DNA of 64,000 nucleotides from Collimonas antrihumi (lineage in GTDB: Bacteria > Pseudomonadota > Gammaproteobacteria > Burkholderiales > Burkholderiaceae_D), in the NCBI RefSeq assembly GCF_018304965.1, contig NZ_JAGQED010000023.1, forward strand, positions 1 to 64,000, read 5' to 3'. Shown piece after piece: positions 41,366-53,587 of the stretch. Under the pieces are notes generated by a model. That model was given only the letters and a program-made list of their open reading frames with translations, made no database searches and was not told where the DNA came from. Position numbers and translations under genes: made by a program. Numbering within the stretch: position 1 is the stretch's first letter; every line of letters begins with the position of its first letter.

Positions 41366-41394
41366 TTGTAATTGTAGTAATGCTACATTAATAT
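41366..41394 (+). promoter_or_regulatory. Putative zwf promoter
   Basis: TTGTAA (41366-41371), a 17-bp spacer and TAATAT (41389-41394) form a plausible sigma-70 promoter about 36 bp before the zwf ATG. The HexR-like palindrome at 41373-41387 fills the spacer, which would fit repression. The -10 box is imperfect. Confidence 0.4.
41373..41387. promoter_or_regulatory. HexR-like operator upstream of zwf
   Basis: TGTAGTAATGCTACA has perfect inverted arms TGTAG/CTACA and matches the HexR consensus at 14 of 15 positions. It lies 43 bp before the zwf ATG. Confidence 0.65.
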
Positions 41395-41430
41395 TGCAAT
41401 ATAAGTTTTTTATTTATTACAAAAATTTTG

Positions 41431-42906
41431 ATGCAACCACATATTCCTTTTACTTTCACGCTTTTCGGAGCGACCGGCGATTTATCGATGCGGAAGATTC
41501 TTCCTGCGTTATTTGTTGCCCATAGGGAAGGGAAGTTGCATCAGGACGGCCGCATCATCTGCGTCGCCAAGCAGGATTTCAGTCAGGAAGATTACCTGGC
41601 CTGGGTCAGCAAGAGCGCCATCCCTTATGTGAAAAGCGGGCTGGCAGGCACGCAGGACGAGGCACACTGGCAAAGTTTTCTGGCGCGCATCACTTATCTG
41701 CCACTGGATCTGCTGGACCGCGCCGGTTATCGGTTGCTGGCAAAGACGCTGGCAGCCGGCAAAGCGGTGTCGGTTTTTTATCTGGCGACTTCGCCATCGT
41801 TGTTCGAGCCGATCTGCGCCAATCTTGCCGCCAGCGATATCGATCTGTCGCAGGCGCGGCTGGTGCTGGAGAAGCCGTTGGGCCATGATTTGCTGTCTTC
41901 GCGGGCGATCAACGATGCGGTAGCTCGCGTCTTCGCCGAAGACCAGATTTATCGCATCGATCATTACCTGGGCAAGGAGGCGGTGCAAAACCTGTTGGCT
42001 TTGCGTTTTGCCAACTCTCTGTTTGAACCGCTGTGGCGGCGCGAGTCAGTGGCACATGTCCAGCTGACGATTGCCGAGCAACTAGGTGTTGAGGGTCGCG
42101 GCGAGTTCTATGACGCTACCGGCGCCATGCGCGACATGGTGCAAAACCATTTGCTGCAATTGCTGTGCATGGTGGCGATGGAACCGCCGACGTCGCTGGA
42201 TGCGGATGCTGTGCGGGACGAGAAATTGCGTGTGTTGCGTGCATTGAAGCCGTTTTCGCCCGAAGACATGGAGCTGAAGGCGGTGCGCGGCCAGTATGTG
42301 TCGGGCGCAGTCGACGGCCAATCAGTTGCGGCTTATCAGCAAGAGCCGGGAGTGGCCGCCCAATCGCAGACGGAAACTTTCGTCGCGCTGCATGCCGAGA
42401 TCAATAACTGGCGTTGGGCCGGGGTACCGTTCTTCTTGCGCACTGGCAAACGTCTGGCGCAGCGCACGGCGGAAATCGTGATTACCTTCCGGCCTATCCC
42501 GCACGCCATTTTACCGATGCCAGGCGGGCAAGCCGGGGGCAGCAGCAACCGCCTGGTGATCCGCCTGCAGCCGGACGAATCGATTCAACTGCATTGCCTG
42601 GCAAAACAGCCTGGCGATGGCATGACGGTACAGCCGGTAGCGCTTGACCTGGCGTTCGACCAGGCTTTCAAGCAGCGCCGGGCAGAAGCGTATGAGCGCT
42701 TGTTGCTGGATGCAATTCGCGGAAATTTGTCTTTATTCGTGCGGCGTGATGAACAAGAAGCAGCGTGGCGCTGGGTCGAGCCGCTGTTGCACCATTGGCA
42801 AAGCAGTTCGTCTCAGCCTAAACCTTATATGGCAGGCAGCTGGGGGCCGACAGCGTCGTTTGCGATGATGGCGCGTGCGGGAGCCCAATGGCCGGAAGAT
42901 CGTTGA
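41431..42906 (+). CDS. zwf: Glucose-6-phosphate 1-dehydrogenase (first copy)
   Basis: A 491-residue enzyme oxidising glucose 6-phosphate to 6-phosphogluconolactone with NAD(P)+. The nucleotide loop GATGDLS is at 13-19. The substrate motif YRIDHYLGKEAVQNLLALRFAN carries the catalytic histidine. I use the ATG at 41431; a TTG directly before it is in frame. No clear ribosome binding site is seen, only an A/T-rich leader. It diverges from gtsA and is followed after 158 bp by the glk-hexR fusion gene, with no pgl gene between. A second zwf lies at 49985. Confidence 0.92.
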   Translation: MQPHIPFTFTLFGATGDLSMRKILPALFVAHREGKLHQDGRIICVAKQDFSQEDYLAWVSKSAIPYVKSGLAGTQDEAHWQSFLARITYLPLDLLDRAGYRLLAKTLAAGKAVSVFYLATSPSLFEPICANLAASDIDLSQARLVLEKPLGHDLLSSRAINDAVARVFAEDQIYRIDHYLGKEAVQNLLALRFANSLFEPLWRRESVAHVQLTIAEQLGVEGRGEFYDATGAMRDMVQNHLLQLLCMVAMEPPTSLDADAVRDEKLRVLRALKPFSPEDMELKAVRGQYVSGAVDGQSVAAYQQEPGVAAQSQTETFVALHAEINNWRWAGVPFFLRTGKRLAQRTAEIVITFRPIPHAILPMPGGQAGGSSNRLVIRLQPDESIQLHCLAKQPGDGMTVQPVALDLAFDQAFKQRRAEAYERLLLDAIRGNLSLFVRRDEQEAAWRWVEPLLHHWQSSSSQPKPYMAGSWGPTASFAMMARAGAQWPEDR

Positions 42907-43064
42907 GTTGCCTGAATGAAAAATTTGAAGAGTGTGGAAAACGCGTAGAAAAAAACGTGCCACGCGCGTGACAAAAGCGCAGCAAAAAGCACGGCAAGTA
43001 ATGTAAGAAATCGCTACCGCACATCCTACTAACAGTATTAGCATTTAAGTGAAAGTTTTACACC

Positions 43065-45050
43065 ATGTCTTCATCCACGATCATGAGCGCTAGCGAGAAC
43101 TCGGCAACTAGCTATCTGGATGGCCCCCGTCTGCTGGCAGATGTCGGCGGTACCAATGCGCGCTTCGGGTTAGAGCGCGCGCCGGGCCAGATCGACACGA
43201 TACAGACCTTGCGCTGTGCCGATTATGCCGAATTCGCGCTGGCGGTCGAGGCGTACCTGGCTTCCAACGTGCCTGTCAGCGCGCGTTCGCAAGTGCGGCA
43301 TGCGGCAATCGCGATCGCCAATCCGGTGCAGGGCGACGACATCAAGATGACCAATCATCATTGGGAATTTTCGATTGAAAATATGCGCCGCCGCCTGAAT
43401 CTGGACACGCTGCTGGTGGTCAATGATTTCACCGCATTGTCGATGTCTTTGCCGCATCTGGAGCAATCGCATTGCATCCAGGTCGGCGCTGGCCGTGCGT
43501 TGAGCGGCGGCGTGATCGGCCTGGTTGGCGCCGGTACCGGGCTCGGCGTCGGCGGTTTGATTCCTACGGAAGGTCGCTGGATTGCACTGGGCAGCGAAGG
43601 CGGCCATGTCACCTTCGCCCCCGGCGATGCGCGCGAGGCTGCGGTGCTGGCCTATTGCTGGCGCACTTATTCGCACGTTTCGGCCGAGCGCCTGGTTTCC
43701 GGGCCTGGCATCGAAATGATTTACCAGGCATTGGCCGATCTGCAGGGAATCGCCAAGCCTGAGCCTTTGCATACCGCGCAAATCGTCGAGCGCGCATTGC
43801 AAGGCCAAGATGGCTTGTGCATGGAAGTAGTGGAATGTTTTTGTGCGATGCTGGGCACGGTAGCGGCCGACGTCGCAGTGACCTTGGGTACGTTGGGCGG
43901 CTTGTATATCGGCGGCGGCGTGGTGCCGCGCCTGGGCGATTATTTCGCCCGTTCGCCGTTTCGCGCACGCTTCGAAAGCAAAGGGCGTTTCAGCAGCTAT
44001 CTGGCCAAAGTCCCGACCTTCGTCATTACCGCGCCTTATCCGGCCTTCGTTGGGGTTGCTGCCATTCTTTCCGAGCATCTCGGCGGTGGCAACGCCGTGC
44101 CTATCCTGGAAAAAATCCGTAAGGCGCGCGATCAGTTTTCACCTGCCGAGCAAAAGGTTGCGAGCCTGATCCTGGCCCATCCGCGCGCCGTGATGAGCGA
44201 GCCGATTTCAGAAATCGCCAGACGTGCCGATGTCAGCCAGCCGACGGTGATCCGGTTTTGTCGCACCATGGGTTGCCAGGGTTTGGCCGATTTCAAGTTG
44301 AAGCTGGCTTCAGGCGTCACTGGCACGGTGCCGGTTGCGCACAGCCAGGTTCACGTCGGCGATTCTTCGCTGGATGTCGGCGTCAAGGTGGTCGACAACA
44401 CCATTTCAGCGATGATGGAAGTACGCGATAACCTCAATGCCGACACCCTGTCGCGGGTGATCGAAGCATTAAGCCAGGCCAGCCGTATCGAATTCTACGG
44501 CTTCGGCAGCTGTGGCCTGGTGGCTGAAGATGCGCAGCAAAAATTCTTCCGGCTGGGGATTCCATCTTCGGCCTATACCGATCCGCAGCTGCAGGAAGTT
44601 TCTGCCGCCATGCTGAAAAGCAGCGACGTCGTAGTGGTGATCTCCAATTCCGGACGTTTGCGCCATCTGGCGCCGGCAGTCGAGGTTGCGGTGCATTCCG
44701 GCGCCACCATCATCGCGCTGGCTCCAAGCAATTCGCAATTGGCCAAGCGTGCGAACTACACGCTGGCAGTCGAGCACGACGAAAGCAGCATGATGCATAT
44801 TCCAATGGTTTCGCGGATCTTGCTGTTGCTATTGATCGACGTGCTGGCCGTGGGCGTATCGCTCAACCGTTCCAGCCCGTTTGCCGAATTGCAGCGCCAG
44901 GCCAAACGCGGCATCCTGACCCACATCGCTTCGTTGGGCGAGTCGGCCAGCGACAAGATCACCGCTGAGGGTGATGGCAAACCGGTGCAATCGGCACGTA
45001 CCGATCAAGAGGTGACTTTGTCGCCGAATGTGATTTCACATATCAAATAA
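43065..45050 (+). CDS. glk: Fused glucokinase and HexR/RpiR-type regulator
   Basis: A 661-residue two-part protein. Residues about 20-340 are a glucokinase of the E. coli Glk type: LLADVGGTNARFGL near 23-36, VNDFTALSMSLPHLE with the catalytic aspartate, GAGTGLGVGGLIP and GGHVTFAP. From about 345, an RpiR family unit follows: a helix-turn-helix (EIARRADVSQPTVIRFCRTMG) and a SIS sugar-phosphate domain (about 465-600, RIEFYGFGSCGLVAEDAQQKFFRLG). Such glk-regulator fusions are known in Burkholderia. It could phosphorylate glucose and sense the downstream sugar acids, regulating ED genes. The frame is continuous, so this is not a sequencing join. Confidence 0.92.
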   Translation: MSSSTIMSASENSATSYLDGPRLLADVGGTNARFGLERAPGQIDTIQTLRCADYAEFALAVEAYLASNVPVSARSQVRHAAIAIANPVQGDDIKMTNHHWEFSIENMRRRLNLDTLLVVNDFTALSMSLPHLEQSHCIQVGAGRALSGGVIGLVGAGTGLGVGGLIPTEGRWIALGSEGGHVTFAPGDAREAAVLAYCWRTYSHVSAERLVSGPGIEMIYQALADLQGIAKPEPLHTAQIVERALQGQDGLCMEVVECFCAMLGTVAADVAVTLGTLGGLYIGGGVVPRLGDYFARSPFRARFESKGRFSSYLAKVPTFVITAPYPAFVGVAAILSEHLGGGNAVPILEKIRKARDQFSPAEQKVASLILAHPRAVMSEPISEIARRADVSQPTVIRFCRTMGCQGLADFKLKLASGVTGTVPVAHSQVHVGDSSLDVGVKVVDNTISAMMEVRDNLNADTLSRVIEALSQASRIEFYGFGSCGLVAEDAQQKFFRLGIPSSAYTDPQLQEVSAAMLKSSDVVVVISNSGRLRHLAPAVEVAVHSGATIIALAPSNSQLAKRANYTLAVEHDESSMMHIPMVSRILLLLLIDVLAVGVSLNRSSPFAELQRQAKRGILTHIASLGESASDKITAEGDGKPVQSARTDQEVTLSPNVISHIK

Positions 45051-45063
45051 TGCCTGGGATGCG

Positions 45064-45097
45064 GGTAGGGGGGGGGCACGTAGTGCCCACACCCTAC
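45064..45097. repeat. GTAGGGTGGGC-family palindromic repeat, copy 4
   Basis: GTAGGG plus a G-run and GGGCAC pair with GTGCCCAC-ACCCTAC. It lies 14 bases after the glk-hexR stop. The arms are less regular than in the copy at 17944. Confidence 0.65.
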
Positions 45098-45123
45098 AAC
45101 GCCATAACAAAACTCGTCGCCCA

Positions 45124-45154
45124 TAAAAAATGCCCATTCGCACGCGAATGGGCA
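45124..45154 (-). terminator. Intrinsic terminator of the porin gene
   Basis: TGCCCATTCG (45131-45140) pairs with CGAATGGGCA (45145-45154) around CACG. The A-run 45124-45130 becomes the U-run on the minus strand, so it ends porin transcription about 125 bases after its stop. Confidence 0.8.
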
Positions 45155-45278
45155 AAATCTGGGAGTTACCCAGGGACGTCTTTCACTAATGCCGCGCACG
45201 CGGCAAGCACCACGGTGGTACTAGCAAGGTCAATCGACGCGCCGAGCTCAAGCGGCGCGTCCATCGATACTTGCTGTC

Positions 45279-46391
45279 TTAGAACGAGTGGCTGATACCA
45301 GTGTAGAACGTGTTTTGGTTCTGTCCAGTCAAGCCGGTGCTGTCGCCGGTTTGAACTTGGAAATCGGTGTTCGAACCATTGCGGATAGTACCGATGCTCG
45401 CGTACAGCAGAGTCCGCTTGGACAGGCTGTAGTTGGTACCCAGCATGAACAGGTTTGCGCTGCCTACGTCGTGGTTAAGCTTGACGTGATAAGCCGCGCC
45501 GATCAGCGTCAGGGCAGGGGTCAGCTGGTAGTTGGCGCCGAGCCAGAACTGATTGGCCTTGTTAGCTGCACCGATGCCGCTGGTCGTCAGAGGCTGAGCC
45601 GGAGCCGACAGGTTTTGCCAGCCGGCGTACAGTTTTGCGGCGCCGAACGTCACGTTGCCGCCGACAGTGATTTCCTTGGAGCGGGAGAACAAGTTGTCGT
45701 AAGTGCCGTTTTCGTCATGTGCCGTATCGTACATCGCCAGCAATTCATAGGTAGGCTGTACGAAACCAATTGCGATACCGGTGCTGTTACCGATTCCTGA
45801 ACCAGTTGGTCCGCGTGTAGTCGATCCTGCAGCTTCGCCGGCGCCGTACATGAGGTGCACGTAGAGGCCGCCCATATCTGGCGTGATGTACTGAATCTGG
45901 TTGCTGGTTTGTGGCCAGTTACGACCTTTGAACAAGGTCGAAGTACTCATGTTCTGTTGGCCGGTAGGATCGATGCTCCATACCTTGTCGCTTGGCAGCG
46001 CAAGATCGCGGCCGATTTTCACAGTACCGAAGCCACCGTTCAAACCAACGGTCGAACGACGATTAAAAAGGCCGGAGCCATTGAAGCGGCCGGTGTCGGC
46101 TTGGAAGCCGCTTTCCAATGTGAACATCGCTTTCAGGCCGCCACCCAGATCTTCGGTGCCCTTGAAACCGATCATGCTGGTACCCCATTCGTTACCACCG
46201 ACGCCCCATTGGCCGCCACGGATGGTATTGCCATTTGCATCTTTGCCGACTTGATTGCTTTGGTAGTTGATGCCCGCATCGACGCGACCATAGATGATCA
46301 CATTGGTTTGCGCTTGCGCCTGGCCAGCGAATGCGCAAGCCAGAACTGCGGCAATCGCGAGTGGCTTGGCTTTCAGAACGGATTTTCTCAT
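45279..46391 (-). CDS. Outer membrane porin (Gram-negative porin family)
   Basis: A 370-residue precursor of a trimeric beta-barrel porin of the betaproteobacterial type. The signal peptide ends AQA at residue 27, and the mature N-terminus reads QTNVIIYGRVDAGINYQSN. Alternating amphipathic strands, the TVGLNGGFGTVKIGRD block and a C-terminal phenylalanine in TFYTGISHSF are diagnostic. AGGAGATGAA precedes the ATG. Its position within sugar genes and the HexR-like site 180 bp upstream suggest a role in sugar uptake, but porins of this family are often nonspecific. Confidence 0.92.
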   Translation of the reverse strand: MRKSVLKAKPLAIAAVLACAFAGQAQAQTNVIIYGRVDAGINYQSNQVGKDANGNTIRGGQWGVGGNEWGTSMIGFKGTEDLGGGLKAMFTLESGFQADTGRFNGSGLFNRRSTVGLNGGFGTVKIGRDLALPSDKVWSIDPTGQQNMSTSTLFKGRNWPQTSNQIQYITPDMGGLYVHLMYGAGEAAGSTTRGPTGSGIGNSTGIAIGFVQPTYELLAMYDTAHDENGTYDNLFSRSKEITVGGNVTFGAAKLYAGWQNLSAPAQPLTTSGIGAANKANQFWLGANYQLTPALTLIGAAYHVKLNHDVGSANLFMLGTNYSLSKRTLLYASIGTIRNGSNTDFQVQTGDSTGLTGQNQNTFYTGISHSF

Positions 46392-46561
46392 TTCATCTCC
46401 TAAGTAAAAATGTGGCGTTGACCACTGCTTTCCGAGTCTTCTGTAGCTCGAAATTCTTGAATCGGACTTTGGTTCTTGCGGAGTACTTGTGTTCCGTACT
46501 TTGCGTTCAATTAATGCCGGCTTCTTTGTTGTTAAGAATGGTAAACCGGTTTATGAAATTT

Positions 46562-46590
46562 TTGTTTTATTTGTGTAGTTTTACTATATT
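46562..46590 (+). promoter_or_regulatory. Putative plus-strand promoter in the porin upstream region
   Basis: TTGTTT (46562-46567), 17-bp spacer and TATATT (46585-46590) form a sigma-70-like promoter pointing away from the porin gene. Only a terminator follows it, at 46654-46690. The region is AT-rich, so a chance match is possible. Confidence 0.35.
46574..46588. promoter_or_regulatory. HexR-like operator upstream of the porin gene
   Basis: TGTAGTTTTACTATA matches the HexR consensus at 14 of 15 positions. It covers the spacer and -10 of the putative plus-strand promoter and lies about 185 bp upstream of the porin start. Confidence 0.5.
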
Positions 46591-46596
46591 TCTGTT

Positions 46597-46690
46597 GCTA
46601 ATTTACAGCACTGACCAATTTCTCATGCGCTTAACGCATAGTTGTGGCAACTGAAAGACCTATTAAGAATGAACTTAATAGGTCTTTTTT
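46597..46690 (+). ncRNA. Candidate small regulatory RNA, about 94 nt
   Basis: Between the putative promoter at 46562-46590 and a strong plus-strand terminator there is room for a transcript of about 94 nt. It contains no reading frame with a ribosome binding site, a small hairpin ATGCG-CTTAA-CGCAT (about 46625-46639), a GTTG/CAAC hairpin, and a 3' terminator with a six-U end, the usual layout of an Hfq-binding small RNA. No plus-strand gene upstream explains the terminator. The 5' end is estimated from the -10 box. Inference only. Confidence 0.35.
46654..46690 (+). terminator. Strong intrinsic terminator on the plus strand
   Basis: A 14-bp perfect stem, AAAGACCTATTAAG (46654-46667) with CTTAATAGGTCTTT (46674-46687), is followed by a T-run to 46690. 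The U-run is on the plus strand. On the minus strand only three U's follow, so it is a weaker end for the fructokinase transcript. Confidence 0.85.
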
Positions 46691-46721
46691 GTATTTATTT
46701 GTATTTGGGGATTTTTTTATC

Positions 46722-46736
46722 TGTATTTTTACTACA
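46722..46736. promoter_or_regulatory. HexR-like site between the porin and fructokinase genes
   Basis: TGTATTTTTACTACA matches the HexR consensus at 14 of 15 positions. It lies beyond the fructokinase stop and about 330 bp upstream of the porin start. Its distance from any gene start makes its role unclear. Confidence 0.4.
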
Positions 46737-46795
46737 AGTAATTTTGATACATTTACGGGTAGTCTAAATTGCCGCACTGAAACATGGCGGCAATT

Positions 46796-47773
46796 TTAGT
46801 TTTTTTCCAGCAATGCACGCACTTGTGCCAGTTGCGGTGGCTTGGCGCCGGCATTCAAGCAGGCGGCCGAGCCGCAGGCGACGGAAAATCGCAGATGTCG
46901 CAGCCAATCCGGTGATGGAGATTGGCTGGATGAGGTTGATGGTGCGTGTGTAGCGGTTTCTTGGATCAGCGAGAAGATCAGGCCGGCAATGCCGGCATCG
47001 CCGGCGCCTACCGTGTCGACCACAGTGATCGGCGGCGGCGCCACTTGCCAATACTGATCGCCGGCATGGATCGCCGCGCCTTGCGAGCCTAAGGTCAGCA
47101 ACACGGTAGCGTTCGGATTGAAACCGCGTAAGGTCGCCAGGGCGGCCTCGGCATCGTCGGTGCGGAACAGGCCGGCCAGGTCTTCATCCGAAACTTTGAT
47201 AACGTCCGCCAGCTGCGCCATTTTTTTCAGCACGGGATCGTAGCGCTGATCCATCACGTTGCGGAAATTCGGATCGTAGCTGATTTTGACGCCGCGGCCA
47301 TGCAAATCTTCAGCCAGTTCGATCAAGCGCTCGGCCAGCGGCGAACGGGTCAGGCTGATGCCGCCGAAGTGCACCCATGATGCGGCTTGCTGCCAGCCGC
47401 CGGGCAGCATAGCGGGATCGAAGGAGAGGTCGGCACTGTTGTCGCCGATGAAATTGTATTGTGGCGGCGTGGTTTCATACACTACCGCCAACAAGGGCGA
47501 GCGCGCGGCGCGCTGCAGGAAGCGCAGGTCGAGGTCGGCGGCCTGGCTGGCTGCGTACAATTCATCGCCGAACCAGTCCTGGCTGATAGCGCCGGCGAAA
47601 GCCGAGGAAACGCCCAGGCTGGCGGCGGCGCGAGCCACATTCCAGGTCGAGCCGCCGGTCTTGCTGAGCCATTGGTCGGCGCCGACCCGTATCAAATCGG
47701 TGAGTGCTTCGCCGGCGCTGATGAATTGCGGGAAAGGGGGGGCGGGTTGGGCGGATTGGGTTGTTTCAGACAT
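46796..47773 (-). CDS. PfkB-family sugar kinase, probably fructokinase
   Basis: A 325-residue ribokinase-like kinase. The N-terminal FISAGEALTDLIRVG and KTGGSTWNVARAAASLG blocks bind the sugar. The C-terminal signature DTVGAGDAGIAGLIF contains the catalytic aspartate of GAGD. It follows the isomerase gene by 35 bp on the minus strand, so the two are likely one operon: the isomerase would make fructose and the kinase fructose 6-phosphate. Other PfkB substrates such as ketodeoxygluconate are possible, but the neighbour favours fructose. Confidence 0.8.
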   Translation of the reverse strand: MSETTQSAQPAPPFPQFISAGEALTDLIRVGADQWLSKTGGSTWNVARAAASLGVSSAFAGAISQDWFGDELYAASQAADLDLRFLQRAARSPLLAVVYETTPPQYNFIGDNSADLSFDPAMLPGGWQQAASWVHFGGISLTRSPLAERLIELAEDLHGRGVKISYDPNFRNVMDQRYDPVLKKMAQLADVIKVSDEDLAGLFRTDDAEAALATLRGFNPNATVLLTLGSQGAAIHAGDQYWQVAPPPITVVDTVGAGDAGIAGLIFSLIQETATHAPSTSSSQSPSPDWLRHLRFSVACGSAACLNAGAKPPQLAQVRALLEKN

Positions 47774-47808
47774 GACAGCATCCAGGCAATGTTTGATATA
47801 TAAAAAGT

Positions 47809-49038
47809 TTATTCAAGCGGACTACCGATAGCCGCCAGCGATTCCAGGTACGCGCCCATCGGGTGGTAGAAATCGGTTTTGCCATGCGGCGGCTTTTCGG
47901 GGCCGTAGCGTTGGTTGTCTTGCCGCAGGATGCGATACCAGCCGCCGCGCTCCTGGTCTATCAAATGCGCACTGCTGTATTCCCACAATTTGTTGTAGCT
48001 GTCCCAATAACCCTGGTCGCCGCTACGTGCCGCCAGCAGCGCTGCGGTGGCCAGCGATTCTGCCTGCACCCAGAAATACTTGTCGCCGTCACAGACCTTG
48101 CCGTCAGGCGCCAGCCCATACACCAGGCCACCGGATTCCTGATCCCAGGCGGCCGGCATGGTGACATCGAACAGCGCTCTGGCGCGCGGCAGCAGCCAAT
48201 CGGCGTCGCCCTGCAAATGCGCGCGATGGCGTTCCAGCAGCAACAGCAACTTCGACCACTCGGTCATGTGGCCGGGCTGGAAGCCCCACGGGCGGAACAT
48301 ATTGCTGCTGTCGTGGCGGTTGTATTCCCAGTCCACGCGCCAGTCGGCATGATAGTGTTCCCAGATCCAGCCGTCGGCCAGCGCCGCCTGGCGCTCGGTG
48401 ATGTTGTGCGCCAGCAGCTCGGCGCGGTGCAAATAGCGTTGCTCGCCAGTGGCTTCAAATGCGGCGATCAGTGCTTCGCAGCTGTGCATATTGGCGTTCT
48501 GGCCACGATAAGACGACACTACGCCATCGGGCGTGGCTTCGTCGGCGTACAAGCCGTCGACTTCCGACCAGAACAGTTTTTCCATCAAATCGAAGGTGGC
48601 GCCGATACCTGCGGCTGCGTCGTCGATGCCGATGCGCAGCGCGTGGGCATGCGCCAGCAGTACGAATGCCAGGCCATAGCAATGCTGGGTGCGATCGATG
48701 GCGGCATGGTTTTCCAATACCCAGGCATAGCCGCCGTAAGATGGCTGCCAATGCCGTTCCTGTAAAAAGCGCAAGCCATGCCGTGCCGCTGCGCGATATT
48801 CTTCCTTGCCGTCGAGGCGCCAAGCCAGGGCGTAGCAAAACACCATCCGGCTGCTGTTGACCAGATGCCGGCTGGCGCTATCGTAGACGCTGCCGTCGTC
48901 GTTCAGGTAATGGAAAAATCCGCCGGCGGGATCAATCGCGCGCGGATGAAAGAAGGCGATGTCGCGCCGCATCCTGTCGCGCAGGAATTCAGGGTCACGA
49001 TAATCGAGATGCTTGGGCAAGGCAGAAGTTGGTCTCAT
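47809..49038 (-). CDS. AGE/YihS-like aldose-ketose isomerase (probable mannose isomerase)
   Basis: A 409-residue (alpha/alpha)6-barrel enzyme of the N-acylglucosamine 2-epimerase superfamily. Four residues match the YihS/mannose isomerase active site with a constant offset of nine: R64, H185 (NANMHSCEAL), H257 (FQPGHMTEWSK) and H392 (DFYHPMGAYLES), corresponding to YihS R55, H176, H248 and H383. That pattern points to D-mannose/D-fructose interconversion rather than GlcNAc epimerisation. The adjacent fructokinase and nearby pgi support this. Sulfoquinovose isomerase has similar residues but no sulfoglycolysis genes are here. Confidence 0.82.
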   Translation of the reverse strand: MRPTSALPKHLDYRDPEFLRDRMRRDIAFFHPRAIDPAGGFFHYLNDDGSVYDSASRHLVNSSRMVFCYALAWRLDGKEEYRAAARHGLRFLQERHWQPSYGGYAWVLENHAAIDRTQHCYGLAFVLLAHAHALRIGIDDAAAGIGATFDLMEKLFWSEVDGLYADEATPDGVVSSYRGQNANMHSCEALIAAFEATGEQRYLHRAELLAHNITERQAALADGWIWEHYHADWRVDWEYNRHDSSNMFRPWGFQPGHMTEWSKLLLLLERHRAHLQGDADWLLPRARALFDVTMPAAWDQESGGLVYGLAPDGKVCDGDKYFWVQAESLATAALLAARSGDQGYWDSYNKLWEYSSAHLIDQERGGWYRILRQDNQRYGPEKPPHGKTDFYHPMGAYLESLAAIGSPLE

Positions 49039-49106
49039 GTCGGTATTTTTTTATAGGTATGCGGTTGCCGGCAGGGAGCCGCTAACAACAAAAAAAACAA
49101 AAAAAA

Positions 49107-49967
49107 TCAGCGGAAAAATGAATCGAACTGCATGTCGAACTGCTGCAAGGCTTTCTGCGCGTTCTGCATTTTCTTGCGGAATTCAGGGCCGCGCTTGAGC
49201 GCCAGCCCGACTGCCAGAATATCGATCACCACCAGATGCGCCAGGCGCGCCGAGATCGGCGTGTAGGGATCGGTATTGAAACTCAGGTCGATCGGCACCA
49301 GCACCGTGGCCAGTTCTGCCAACGGCGTGCCGCTGGGGCCAAGCACAATGATATCCGCGCCGCCTTTTCTTGCCAGCTGGACGCTGCGCAACAGGGCCGC
49401 ATTGCCGCCGCGTTGCGAGATGGCGACCACCGCGTCGCCCGGTTGCAACAGCGAGGCCGCGATGCTGTGGATATGCGGATCGGAGTAGGCGACAGTGGGA
49501 ACGCCGGAGCGGAAAAATTTATGCTGTGCGTCCGCGGCGACGATACCCGAAGTGCCCTGGCCGTAGAACTCGATCTTGTTCGCCTTGAGCAAAACGTCCA
49601 GCGCTTTCTGGATCGCATCGGCGCTTAAATGGTTGCGCAGGTCGAGCAGGGTGTTAATCGAGCGGCTGCAAATCTTGTTGACCAGATCGGCGGCGATATC
49701 GTCTTGCGCCAGCATTTCGTTGGCGCCCGGCAGGGCCACGGCCAGGCTTTGCGCCAGCTTCAGCTTGAAATCATGCCAGCCCTCGTAACCGATGGCGCGG
49801 CAAAACCGCACCACCGTCGGTTCCGATACTTGTGCGTTCTTGGCCAGGGCAGTGATGTTTTCTGCCAGCGCCAGCTGCGGATTATCAAGAATGGTCAGTG
49901 CGACCTTTTTCTCAGACTTCGACAGCAAGTCGATCTGAGTCTTGATCGCATCCAGTAGCATTGTCAT
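49107..49967 (-). CDS. hexR: HexR-like transcriptional regulator (RpiR family)
   Basis: A 286-residue regulator with an N-terminal helix-turn-helix domain (1-77; ENITALAKNAQVSEPTVVRFCRAIGYEGWHDFKLKLAQ) and a C-terminal SIS domain (about 120-255; IEFYGQGTSGIVAADAQHKFFRSGVP) that binds a phosphosugar, in HexR 2-keto-3-deoxy-6-phosphogluconate. The ATG at 49967 has AGGA upstream; the frame is open further but that part lies in zwf. It starts 18 bp after the zwf stop, a hexR-zwf pairing also seen in Pseudomonas though in other order. It is a paralogue of the C-terminal half of the glk fusion. Confidence 0.88.
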   Translation of the reverse strand: MTMLLDAIKTQIDLLSKSEKKVALTILDNPQLALAENITALAKNAQVSEPTVVRFCRAIGYEGWHDFKLKLAQSLAVALPGANEMLAQDDIAADLVNKICSRSINTLLDLRNHLSADAIQKALDVLLKANKIEFYGQGTSGIVAADAQHKFFRSGVPTVAYSDPHIHSIAASLLQPGDAVVAISQRGGNAALLRSVQLARKGGADIIVLGPSGTPLAELATVLVPIDLSFNTDPYTPISARLAHLVVIDILAVGLALKRGPEFRKKMQNAQKALQQFDMQFDSFFR

Positions 49968-49984
49968 TCTGTGTCCTGGCCCGG

Positions 49985-51457
49985 TTACAATTCTGGCAGC
50001 GATTCTTCGCGCCACTGCAAGCCGTCGCGTGCAATCAGGGCGCTGGCTGCCGCCGGGCCCCAGGTGCCGGCGGTGTAAGGAATCGGATCGTCTTCTTCCT
50101 GGTCCCAGAACTCCAGAATCGGCTCTACCCATTCCCATGCCGCTTCCAGTTCGTCGCTGCGCATGAATAATGTCAACTGGCCGCGCAAGACGTCCAGCAG
50201 CAGCCGTTCGTAAGCTTCCATGCGCGGAGATTTGAAGCTTTCGCGGAAATTCAGTTCCAGCTCAACCGGTTTCAAGCGCATGCCGTCGCCCGGGGTCTTG
50301 GCCATCAGGTTCAGGGTCAGGCCTTCGTCCGGCTGCAAGCGGATGACCAGGCAGTTCGGCTCGAAGCTGCTGTTCGGCTGGGCAAAAATCGAATGCGGGA
50401 TGGTCTTGAAGCGAATCACGATTTCCGCCAGCGAATCGGCCATGCGTTTGCCGGTGCGCAGGTAAAACGGCACGCCAGCCCAGCGCCAGGTATCGACCTC
50501 GGCCTTCAGTGCGACAAAGGTTTCCGTGCGCGACTGCGGATTGGCGTCGGCTTCCTTGCGATAACCAGGCACCGCAACGCCTTCGACATGGCCGGAACGA
50601 TACTGTCCACGCACCACATTGTGCGCCAGCGTAGTCGGCGTGAAGCGCTTTAGCGAACGCAGCACTTTTAGCTTTTCATCGCGGACGGCATCCGGAGTAA
50701 TCGATACCGGCGGCTCCATGGCGACGATACATAACAGTTGCAGCAAGTGATTTTGCAGCATGTCGCGCAGAGCGCCCGAAGTTTCGTAGTAACCCATCCG
50801 GTTGCCGACGCCGAGTTGTTCGGCGATGGTGATCTGCACGTCGGAAATCCATTCGCGGCGCCACAGCGGCTCGAACAATACATTGCCGAAGCGCAACGCC
50901 AGCAGGTTTTGCACAGTCTCTTTGCCGAGGTAGTGATCGATACGGAAAATTTGCGATTCGGCAAACACCAGGCCGACTTCGACATTGATCTGCTTGGCGC
51001 TGGCGAGGTCGCGGCCCAACGGTTTTTCCAGCACCACGCGCGAGTTGGAAGTGGCGAGGCCGCTGGCAGCCAGGTTTTTGCAGATTTTCGAGAACAGGCT
51101 AGGCGGCGTCGCCAGGTAAAACACATTGGTGATCGCGTGATCAGGCCGCATGGCTTCGACCAGGGCTTTGTAGGAAGCGGCATCGGTGGCGTCCATGCCG
51201 ACGTACTTGATGCGCTTGCAAAAACGCTGCCAGACGGTGGCGTCGAAGCTTTCCTTGCTGACGTGCGGCTTGGCGTCCCGCTCTACGTGCTTGATGAAAT
51301 CTTCGTCGCTGCTGTCATGCCGTCCGATGCACAGGATGCGCGCATCCGGCGGCAAGTCGTTAGCGCGGTCGCGCGCATACATTGCCGGCAGCAGCTTGCG
51401 CATTGCCAGGTCGCCGGTGCCGCCAAAGATTGCCAAATCAAATTCTGCAAGAGCCAT
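49985..51457 (-). CDS. zwf: Glucose-6-phosphate 1-dehydrogenase (second copy)
   Basis: A 490-residue paralogue of the protein at 41431. GGTGDLA is at 12-18, and the FRIDHYLGKETVQNLLALRFGN motif is intact, as are the LEKPLGRDL and VPFYLRTGKRMA blocks. It is co-oriented with hexR, 18 bp upstream of it. The two Zwf copies differ clearly in sequence, so this is an old duplication or two separate acquisitions. A palindromic element lies upstream at 51502. No HexR-like site was found near its start. Confidence 0.93.
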   Translation of the reverse strand: MALAEFDLAIFGGTGDLAMRKLLPAMYARDRANDLPPDARILCIGRHDSSDEDFIKHVERDAKPHVSKESFDATVWQRFCKRIKYVGMDATDAASYKALVEAMRPDHAITNVFYLATPPSLFSKICKNLAASGLATSNSRVVLEKPLGRDLASAKQINVEVGLVFAESQIFRIDHYLGKETVQNLLALRFGNVLFEPLWRREWISDVQITIAEQLGVGNRMGYYETSGALRDMLQNHLLQLLCIVAMEPPVSITPDAVRDEKLKVLRSLKRFTPTTLAHNVVRGQYRSGHVEGVAVPGYRKEADANPQSRTETFVALKAEVDTWRWAGVPFYLRTGKRMADSLAEIVIRFKTIPHSIFAQPNSSFEPNCLVIRLQPDEGLTLNLMAKTPGDGMRLKPVELELNFRESFKSPRMEAYERLLLDVLRGQLTLFMRSDELEAAWEWVEPILEFWDQEEDDPIPYTAGTWGPAAASALIARDGLQWREESLPEL

Positions 51458-51501
51458 GATAAATGAGACCTATAAATTACTACCGCTTTTTTTAAAACCC
51501 T

Positions 51502-51582
51502 CGTCATTCCCGCGAACGCGGGCGCCAAGGCGGAGAATCCATGTTGACCATTAAAATGGATCTCCGCGTTCGCGGGAATGAC
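51502..51582. repeat. GTCATTCCCGCG-family palindromic element, copy 2
   Basis: An 81-bp element begins CGTCATTCCCGCGAACGCGG and ends GCGTTCGCGGGAATGAC. Near-identical in length and ends to the copy at 36355-36436, with centre GGAGAATCCATG...AAAATGGATCTCCG. It fills the gap between pgi and the second zwf and carries no tandem array. Confidence 0.78.
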
Positions 51583-51610
51583 AAGGATGTATGAATAATA
51601 TGTAACTCCG

Positions 51611-53281
51611 TTATGACAACGCCGTGCGCGCCATCGCAATCAAGCCATTGGTCGAACTGTCGTGGCCTTGCGGGGCAGCGGCGGTGGTCAGCTCGTTCAA
51701 GATATTGCTTGCCAAAACCTTGCCCAGTTCGACACCCCATTGATCGAAACTGTTGACGTCCCAGATAACGCCCTGGACAAATACCTTATGTTCGTACAAA
51801 GCGATCAGCGCGCCAAGGTTGGCGGGAGTCAGTGCTTCCATCAAGATTGTGTTGCTGGGGCGATTGCCGGGGAAGGTGCGATGCGGCAGCAGTGCGGCGA
51901 TCTGCTCGGCTGGCATGCCTTTGGCTTGCATTTCCGCCTGTACTTCGTCGGCATGCTTGCCGCGCATCAGCGCTTCCGACTGAGCGAAGCAGTTGGCCAG
52001 CAGCGCGGCTTGGTGGCCGGGCAAGTGATGGCTGGCGTTCAATGTCGCAATAAAATCGACCGGCGTAATGTCGGTGCCTTGATGCAGCAATTGAAAATAG
52101 GCATGCTGGCCGTTGGTGCCGACATTGCCCCAGATAATCGGGCAAGTGGCAGCTACAAGCGTACGGCCGTCGAGGCTGACGCGCTTGCCGTTGCTTTCCA
52201 TTTCCAGTTGCTGCAGATAGGAAGGGAAGTTTCCCAGGTCCTGGTGGTAAGGTGCAATCGAGACAGAGCGGTAATCGAAGAAATTGCGGTACCAGACGCC
52301 CAGCAACGCCAGGATCACCGGCATGTTCTGTTCCAGCGGCGCGTTTTGGAAGTGCTGGTCCATGGCGTGGGCGCCGGCCAGGAATTCGCTGAACCGCTCG
52401 AAGCCGACCGCCAGCGCTACCGACAGGCCAATCGATGACCACACCGAGTAACGGCCGCCGACCCAATCCCAGAACGGGAACATATTGGCGGCATCGATGC
52501 CGAACGCCGTGACACCTTCAACATTGGTGGATACGGCGACAAAATGTTTGCGCAGGTCGGACTCTTTGGCGCCAGCAGCATTCTGCAAAAACCAGTTGCG
52601 CGCCGAGTGCGCGTTCATCATGGTTTCCGCGGTGGTGAAGGTTTTCGAGGCGATCACGAAAAGCGTGGTTTGCGGATCGACCTGCTGCAGCACGGCATCA
52701 AGATCGTCGCCATCCACATTGGAGACGAAGTGCAGGTGCAGGTCGGCCCGCTGATAGGGACGCAGCGCCTGGCATACCATCTTGGGGCCGAGATCGGAGC
52801 CGCCGATGCCGATATTGACGATATCCGTGATCGGCTTGCCGCTGTATCCCAGCCACGCTCCGGAACGTAGCGCGGTGGTGAATGTCTGAATTCTCTGCAG
52901 GACCGCATGGACGTCGGCGCTGATATGCTGACCATCAAGCTCCAGCGCTGGCAGGCGCGGCGCCCGCAAGGCTGTGTGCAACACGGCGCGATGTTCGGTG
53001 GTATTGATTTTGGCGCCGGCAAACATCGCCTGGCGCTGTGTTTCGACCTGGCGTTCGCGGGCCAGGGCAAACAAATGCGCCATGGTCTCCGCGGTCACAT
53101 TGTTTTTTGCATAATCCAGGAACAGGCCAGCCGCCTTGAGCGAGAACTGTTCAAAGCGCGACGAGGTGGGTGGCGCGGATGGAGCAGCAAACAGCTCACG
53201 CAACGATAAATCTTTGACTGCTGCGTAATGTGCATGCAAGGCTTGGAAGCTGGCGGTAGTATTAAGCGCTGGTTGTGGCAT
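51611..53281 (-). CDS. pgi: Glucose-6-phosphate isomerase
   Basis: A 556-residue cytoplasmic enzyme interconverting glucose 6-phosphate and fructose 6-phosphate. Active-site residues E362 (in QQLEMESNGK) and H393 (in GTNGQHAYFQLLHQGTD) match E. coli E355 and H386 with an offset of seven; the late lysine lies in QWGVELGKVLA. NIGIGGSDLGPKMV is the phosphate loop. It links fructose from the mannose/fructose branch to zwf. It diverges from edd, sharing 333 bp with two HexR-like sites on its side. Confidence 0.95.
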   Translation of the reverse strand: MPQPALNTTASFQALHAHYAAVKDLSLRELFAAPSAPPTSSRFEQFSLKAAGLFLDYAKNNVTAETMAHLFALARERQVETQRQAMFAGAKINTTEHRAVLHTALRAPRLPALELDGQHISADVHAVLQRIQTFTTALRSGAWLGYSGKPITDIVNIGIGGSDLGPKMVCQALRPYQRADLHLHFVSNVDGDDLDAVLQQVDPQTTLFVIASKTFTTAETMMNAHSARNWFLQNAAGAKESDLRKHFVAVSTNVEGVTAFGIDAANMFPFWDWVGGRYSVWSSIGLSVALAVGFERFSEFLAGAHAMDQHFQNAPLEQNMPVILALLGVWYRNFFDYRSVSIAPYHQDLGNFPSYLQQLEMESNGKRVSLDGRTLVAATCPIIWGNVGTNGQHAYFQLLHQGTDITPVDFIATLNASHHLPGHQAALLANCFAQSEALMRGKHADEVQAEMQAKGMPAEQIAALLPHRTFPGNRPSNTILMEALTPANLGALIALYEHKVFVQGVIWDVNSFDQWGVELGKVLASNILNELTTAAAPQGHDSSTNGLIAMARTALS

Positions 53282-53333
53282 ATCCGGAGTCTTTATTGTC
53301 GGTCAGGAATTTATACGACTATACAACGTTGGC

Positions 53334-53348
53334 GGTAATTTCACTACA
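53334..53348. promoter_or_regulatory. HexR-like operator upstream of pgi
   Basis: GGTAATTTCACTACA matches the HexR consensus at 13 of 15 positions and lies 53 bp before the pgi start. A weaker match, TGTAATATACCTGCC (12 of 15), follows at 53357-53371. Confidence 0.5.
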
Positions 53349-53572
53349 AATTATTTTGTAATATACCTGCCTGGAGTTGGTTTGGCGTTGTTCGGCGCTT
53401 TCCGGTAATCACGTGGTTTGCCATTTCTTCAGGGTAATTGTTATGGCAGATCATATGTTTTTGTGTGGCTAGTGGTGCAGTTGCTTGAGTGGAGCGAGCC
53501 TGTTTCAAAAATGCAAATGCGGGCAGGCAATGATGATAAAAAGGGTGATGAGTTAGCGTTGCTTTGTTATTT

Positions 53573-53587
53573 TGTAGTAAAATTTCA
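53573..53587. promoter_or_regulatory. HexR-like operator upstream of edd
   Basis: TGTAGTAAAATTTCA matches the HexR consensus at 14 of 15 positions. It lies 28 bp before the edd ATG at 53615, within the likely promoter or early transcribed region. Confidence 0.6.

Follow-up and report, generated by a model that had tools for sequence, protein, structure and literature searches.

Two HexR-like palindromes at a nearly constant spacing and a probable repressed porin promoter in Collimonas, beside a hairpin seen in a single species

Introduction

In Pseudomonas, the genes edd, gap-1 and zwf are under the repression of the regulator HexR, which acts at sites near their starts and is released by KDPG, an intermediate of the Entner-Doudoroff pathway (PMC5902321, PMC5489143). 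The accessible portion of a review of this genus assigns only these three genes to HexR, and it places the porin gene oprB under GltR/GtrS (PMC5902321). As excerpted, a regulon survey gives zwf as the target in Enterobacteriales and, for the rest of the gammaproteobacteria, larger groups of genes (PMC5343134), while a partial text on Pseudomonas syringae adds levansucrase genes to the targets (PMC4357207).

Here we analyse a gap between a porin gene and a sugar kinase gene of Collimonas antrihumi. It belongs to a 64-kb stretch of DNA, which we call the window. A first-pass annotation had placed there a candidate small RNA under HexR control. We argue that the interval is probably something else: the minus-strand promoter of the porin gene, where a HexR-type regulator would act as a repressor through a phased pair of operators, perhaps with looping of the DNA. 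In those parts of the literature on HexR, porins and Collimonas small RNAs that were available to us, no published description of this region was found; a prediction associating HexR with the porin might have been printed.

Results

Genes around the gap

The gap is bordered by a porin gene of the minus strand (45279-46391; Porin_4, Pfam PF13609, E 3.6e-54), the proposed target of both operators, and by a sugar kinase gene of the same strand (46796-47773), for which the best NCBIfam match is fructokinase (137.4 bits for a cut-off of 450). Around it are found zwf, a glk-hexR fusion, a mannose-isomerase-like gene, a stand-alone gene of the HexR family, a second zwf, pgi, edd and eda. The names zwf, pgi, edd and eda are presumed from a reading of the protein sequences, rather than from a family search.

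Two products of this cluster are candidate binders of the operators. The stand-alone regulator (49107-50138, minus strand) matches PRK11302 HexR with 263.7 bits (cut-off 296), and has the RpiR helix-turn-helix domain HTH_6 and a SIS domain above the Pfam cut-offs. The glucokinase-HexR fusion (43065-45050, plus strand) matches PRK14101 with 843.6 bits (cut-off 920), with Glucokinase, HTH_6 and SIS domains above the Pfam cut-offs. For both proteins the HexR model is the best NCBIfam match, at scores below the NCBIfam cut-offs. Finding in one cluster two HexR-family regulators, one of them fused to glucokinase, together with two zwf-like genes (41428-42906, plus strand; 49985-51457, minus strand) raises the question of divided roles.

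A cluster of HexR-like sites

All site counts given here use the pattern TGTARTNNNAYTACA, modelled on HexR motifs. Allowing at most one mismatch, it occurs at 15 sites in the 4.72-Mb genome. A reversed-pattern control occurs at 32, so that there is no genome-wide excess. Five of these 15 sites fall within 12.2 kb (41373-53587), for 0.04 expected if they were evenly spread. They adjoin zwf (41373-41387, upstream of this gene, glk-hexR being the next one downstream), the porin gene (two sites, the operators A and B described below), pgi (53334-53348, upstream) and edd (53573-53587, upstream of a start that we took as ATG 53615), and each has one mismatch. With up to two mismatches the window holds 9 sites for 2.4 expected, a number reached in one of 100 shuffles. 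Comparing the complete site lists of five genomes, its own included, the same five sequences appear in the same order, on either strand, in four other Collimonas genomes among the matches listed. Some sites outside the cluster recur too – TGTAGTTGAACGACA, for example, is seen in four of the genomes among the matches listed – and recurrence by itself is therefore insufficient. As the site count shows no excess, it is clustering together with recurrence that carries the argument for a regulon. Thus the HexR-like palindrome of the first-pass annotation (46574-46588) holds as a sequence prediction, being one of five related sites that cluster; its role in the control of a small RNA does not. A perfect TGTARTNNNAYTACA palindrome is present at C8:85015, inside an apparent transporter coding sequence. 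We set it aside as an operator, as it is probably there by chance.

The sites might be bound, instead of by HexR, by an RccR-like protein or some other member of the RpiR family, with a different sugar response. Pseudomonas RccR binds the same half-sites, TGTAGT/ACTACA, at 15- and 28-bp spacing and also senses KDPG (PMC5489143), and the presence of two HexR-family genes in the cluster goes in the same direction. However, the clustered sites adjoin zwf, pgi and edd, and zwf and edd are targets of Pseudomonas HexR (PMC5902321), whereas the targets of RccR named in the available part of its description are aceE, aceA, pckA, glcB, gap, pntAA and rccR (PMC5489143). This attribution appears doubtful to us, and a regulator of the HexR type is kept as the preferred candidate in what follows.

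Conservation of the gap

The orthologous gap was compared in 19 loci, from 14 Collimonas and five Glaciimonas genomes. Used against 100 relatives, the query 46540-46760 matched 15: the genome of C. antrihumi itself, 13 of the 14 other Collimonas and one member of the sister genus. The sole Collimonas without a match is a 1.7-Mb genome. With a query limited to block A, described hereafter, matches were obtained in 14 Collimonas and five sister-genus genomes, 19 in all among 294 of the family, and 46556-46615 is matched in these five. Exact copies of the conserved block are found in seven Collimonas records and in one record of Glaciimonas soli; we extend the name Glaciimonas to the four remaining genomes of the sister genus by the genus label that they have in common with G. 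soli.

Identities, computed as pairwise means over the 14 Collimonas loci only, vary widely along the gap. The best-kept parts are block A (46558-46611, assigned by its predicted function to the minus strand; 0.985, with 49 of 54 columns invariant), block B (46721-46753; 0.981), which contains a second HexR-like palindrome, and a segment of the porin leader (46385-46465; 0.975, with 74 of 81 columns invariant). Identity is 0.881 at 46521-46557 and 0.744 at 46689-46720. It falls to 0.643 in the body of the claimed RNA (46612-46690), where the hairpin has 0.625. This body is poorly kept, yet two other stretches of the gap are kept worse (0.569 at 46466-46520, 0.345 at 46754-46795), and it comprises one better-kept piece, around AGTTGTGGCA.

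Two predicted operators at a nearly constant distance

Operator A is the palindrome TGTAGTTTTACTATA (46574-46588). Operator B, TGTATTTTTACTACA (46722-46736), lies 148 bp away. Both differ from TGTARTNNNAYTACA by one mismatch. The presence of operator A in all 19 loci is by construction, since the queries used to retrieve these loci contained it. All 19 loci of the two genera have operator B, with the variant TGTACTTTTACTACA in L015, and four of the five sister-genus loci were retrieved with a query that leaves it out. From start to start, the operators are separated by 145-149 bp in 18 loci and by 138 bp in one, that is, by 10 bp less than in C. antrihumi, a difference of nearly one helical turn. 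Operator A lies at a more variable distance from the porin ATG (150-193). Between the operators the sequence hardly aligns from one genus to the other, while its length is kept. This favours an interaction between the two sites, in lineages which are not independent: constant spacing may come in part from shared ancestry.

Other motifs are found in the vicinity. Weak palindromes beside A (46593-46607) and directly adjoining B (46737-46751), with three mismatches each to the operator pattern, are present in all 14 Collimonas, and could possibly be tandem sites. Between A and B, 73-75 bp from the start of operator A, a direct repeat GTKATCG-N14-GTTATC with a 21-bp period is seen in four of the five Glaciimonas loci (L030, L031, L032, L033) and in none of the 14 Collimonas. 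It is perhaps an activator site.

A proposed promoter with two faces

Within operator A, the hexamer TATAGT (46583-46588, minus strand) is a plausible -10 of the porin gene. Read from 46588 to 46583, it would put the start of the porin transcript near 46576, an A, and with +1 at this place block A would cover about -36 to +18 on the minus strand. No recognisable -35 accompanies it in the sequence, which makes the involvement of an activator likely.

A promoter of the plus strand would suit block A no less well, because a -35/-10-like pair (TTGTTT or TTGGTT, N16 or N17, TATATT or TATATC) is present in 19 of 19 loci. Conservation alone consequently does not tell the direction, and we hold the porin promoter as probable with slightly less confidence than we would otherwise have had. 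In C. antrihumi the pair is TTGTTT-N17-TATATT (46562-46590, plus strand, with TTGTTT at 46562-46567 and TATATT at 46585-46590). By our own count it matches eight of the 12 consensus letters, a weak match that falls below the nine-letter threshold of the sigma-70 scanner and is thus unlisted; the scan yielded one sigma-70-like site in 45000-48500, for 1.4 in shuffles. Nor does its conservation prove that a plus-strand RNA is made, as the promoter and operator of the porin gene would equally require block A to be preserved. We read this plus-strand motif as the likely reverse side of a -10 that is nearly symmetric.

Such symmetry might have a further consequence. The promoter of block A might be bidirectional, making, besides the minus-strand mRNA of the porin gene, a short divergent RNA of the plus strand that would end in C. 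antrihumi at a hairpin and be a by-product devoid of target. Besides the plus-strand match seen in 19 of 19 loci, geometry agrees with this idea: starts set by minus-strand TATAGT and plus-strand TACTAT would be 18 bp apart, those set by TATAGT and plus-strand TATATT 21 bp apart, while the commonest spacing in the accessible parts of the reports on such promoters is 18 bp, with 7-25 bp as the range counted (PMC12825309, PMC10268837). Against it, TACTAT has only four of six letters, and both predicted plus-strand starts are a G, where promoters of this kind, as described there, usually start with an A (PMC12825309, PMC10268837). Bidirectionality seems to us an improbable complement to the porin promoter.

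A strong hairpin in one locus of nineteen

The elements that had suggested a small RNA – promoter-like sequence, palindrome and hairpin with its T-run – are all present in the gap. The hairpin (46653-46688, plus strand) has 15 pairs and is not conserved. As a pattern it is not rare by itself, with four terminator-like sites in 45000-48500 for 4.0 in shuffles; across the window a script found seven strong ones (three on the plus strand, four on the minus strand, one place being counted on both), this hairpin among them. The 98-nt stretch 46595-46692 that contains it folds with -30.2 kcal/mol (z -5.2), and none of 200 shuffles was equally stable.

It had been said that no plus-strand gene precedes the hairpin and, indeed, no convincing gene of the same strand was found before it. 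A plus-strand open reading frame that ends at the hairpin (46331-46654, 107 amino acids) was rejected as a gene: the frame stops after 60-81 codons at the 13 other Collimonas loci. We also discarded the idea that one arm of the hairpin had been rewritten from the other, as private bases are too few to argue from (two of 15 in the 3′ arm, two of six in the loop).

The orthologous gaps were scanned for terminators with a stem of at least six pairs, an energy of at most -6 and a T-rich tail, up to +260 from operator A on the plus strand. A plus-strand terminator-like hairpin was seen in one of 19 loci, that of C. antrihumi, and no minus-strand terminator in any of the 19 gaps at the same threshold. 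Of promoter and hairpin, whose lack of conservation in close relatives was to refute the small RNA, the promoter-like sequence is kept and the hairpin is not. The latter might be an orphan terminator which halts antisense read-through across the porin gene. It is properly oriented, on the plus strand, has a T-run and follows a stretch that is antisense to the start of the porin gene, but a hairpin present in one locus of 19 argues that there is no general need for such a stop, and we consider this role quite unlikely. The hairpin is best read as a feature seen only in C. antrihumi among the species compared.

Covariation gives a concordant result. In the alignment of the 14 Collimonas, no measure for the claimed RNA exceeds shuffles: 72.1% of cells are paired (72.2% in shuffles), changes on both sides of a pair number 13 (12.8 in shuffles) and further pair types are fewer (25 for 31.2). 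The structure does beat slid versions of itself (34.9-55.2% paired), as expected when a structure is derived from a single row. In the consensus fold of the alignment there are 10 pairs, and two-sided changes occur in none of them. With a terminator in one locus of 19 and covariation no better than in shuffles, the RNA part is not a conserved structured RNA.

Nor was any Rfam family found at its gathering score in the window. Within 46380-46800, the best match below threshold is to RsaJ (minus strand; E 0.0015; 23.4 bits for a cut-off of 100), over the last 49 only of 287 model positions. We dismissed it, with the other sub-threshold matches, as due to chance, in this case to a chance resemblance with a hairpin.

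What, then, of a functional HexR-controlled small RNA (46597-46690) that would base-pair with the mRNAs of outer-membrane or sugar genes? The strength of the hairpin (z -5.2) and its T-run, the promoter-like sequence of all 19 loci, the invariance, in the 14 Collimonas, of the 16 columns with which the claimed RNA begins, and a body better kept than the two worst stretches of the gap speak for it. Against it stand the terminator restricted to one orthologous locus, pairing that does not differ from shuffles with fewer pair types, a consensus fold lacking two-sided changes and the lack of any Rfam family that reaches its gathering score. It is unlikely that a conserved regulatory small RNA is encoded there, and one acting on such targets is very improbable indeed. 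A conserved HexR-controlled small RNA is thus not supported, its terminator being private, its body variable and its fold without covariation beyond shuffles.

The porin leader

The porin gene has a conserved 5′ leader (46389-46459, minus strand), where two short stems might form ahead of the ribosome-binding site. In an alignment of 18 of the 19 rows, L007 being left out, 98.6% of the cells of these stems are paired, against 99.0% in shuffles, and changes in pairs are one-sided only, with zero two-sided. The leader is strongly kept in Collimonas and recognisable in Glaciimonas. Its covariance model matches 12 of 145 family genomes (seven Collimonas, five of the sister genus); one of the Glaciimonas genomes has a second copy. 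A DNA search gives 17 matching genomes out of 195, two of which, from two other genera, have short and weak matches (E 0.003-0.008). The genome of C. antrihumi has one copy. We did not retain the leader as a wider RNA family.

Discussion

The sites, their conservation, their spacing and their clustering are observed, and a regulatory scenario may be built on them. At low sugar flux, a HexR-type regulator of the RpiR family encoded nearby would bind operator A, which overlaps the porin -10 (TATAGT) and start site, as well as operator B, 148 bp upstream, and block transcription. Perhaps A and B, which stay near one helical phase, would be held together in one DNA loop. A rise in KDPG would then release the regulator, so that the porin gene, zwf, glk, pgi and edd might respond together. 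We infer the sign of this control, repression, by analogy with Pseudomonas HexR, which represses without its ligand and is released by KDPG. A bolder version can be formulated. Phased HexR-type operators about 14 helical turns apart would loop the porin promoter off until an intracellular metabolite opens the loop, thus setting the permeability of the outer membrane with the Entner-Doudoroff flux, while a bidirectional promoter would yield, in C. antrihumi, a short terminated RNA. This bolder version as a whole, derived from sequence, is speculative and rather unlikely.

What is conserved in the gap is a pair of putative repressor-binding sites, through which the gene of a pore in the outer membrane is probably linked with the metabolism of sugars. 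Were repression at the two operators true, a general porin of Collimonas and Glaciimonas would join a HexR-type regulon, described in Pseudomonas for cytoplasmic sugar enzymes. The locus would also offer a simple test case for DNA looping by RpiR-family repressors. There is a lesson here for annotation: when a single genome is read, a species-specific hairpin beside a conserved operator can mimic a small RNA.

With reference to known systems, the cluster resembles the Pseudomonas HexR regulon by its RpiR-family regulator with a SIS domain, its palindromes near the starts of zwf and edd, and the presence of the regulator among sugar genes. It differs by the inclusion of a porin gene with two operators 148 bp apart. 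The pattern TGTARTNNNAYTACA used here also differs from the consensus that the accessible part of the Pseudomonas review gives for HexR, TTGT-N7/8-ACAA (PMC5902321). The sites are similar as well to those of Pseudomonas fluorescens RccR, with the same half-sites TGTAGT/ACTACA in a 15-bp palindrome, for a regulator the ligand of which is KDPG; unlike here, where zwf, pgi, edd and the porin gene are concerned, the RccR targets named in the portion available are genes of pyruvate metabolism, the glyoxylate route and gluconeogenesis (PMC5489143). Finally, block A recalls the bidirectional bacterial promoters, as partially accessible to us, by its nearly symmetric -10 and possible opposite-strand starts 18 or 21 bp apart. 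Unlike the promoters described, it is embedded in a predicted repressor operator, with starts that are themselves predictions.
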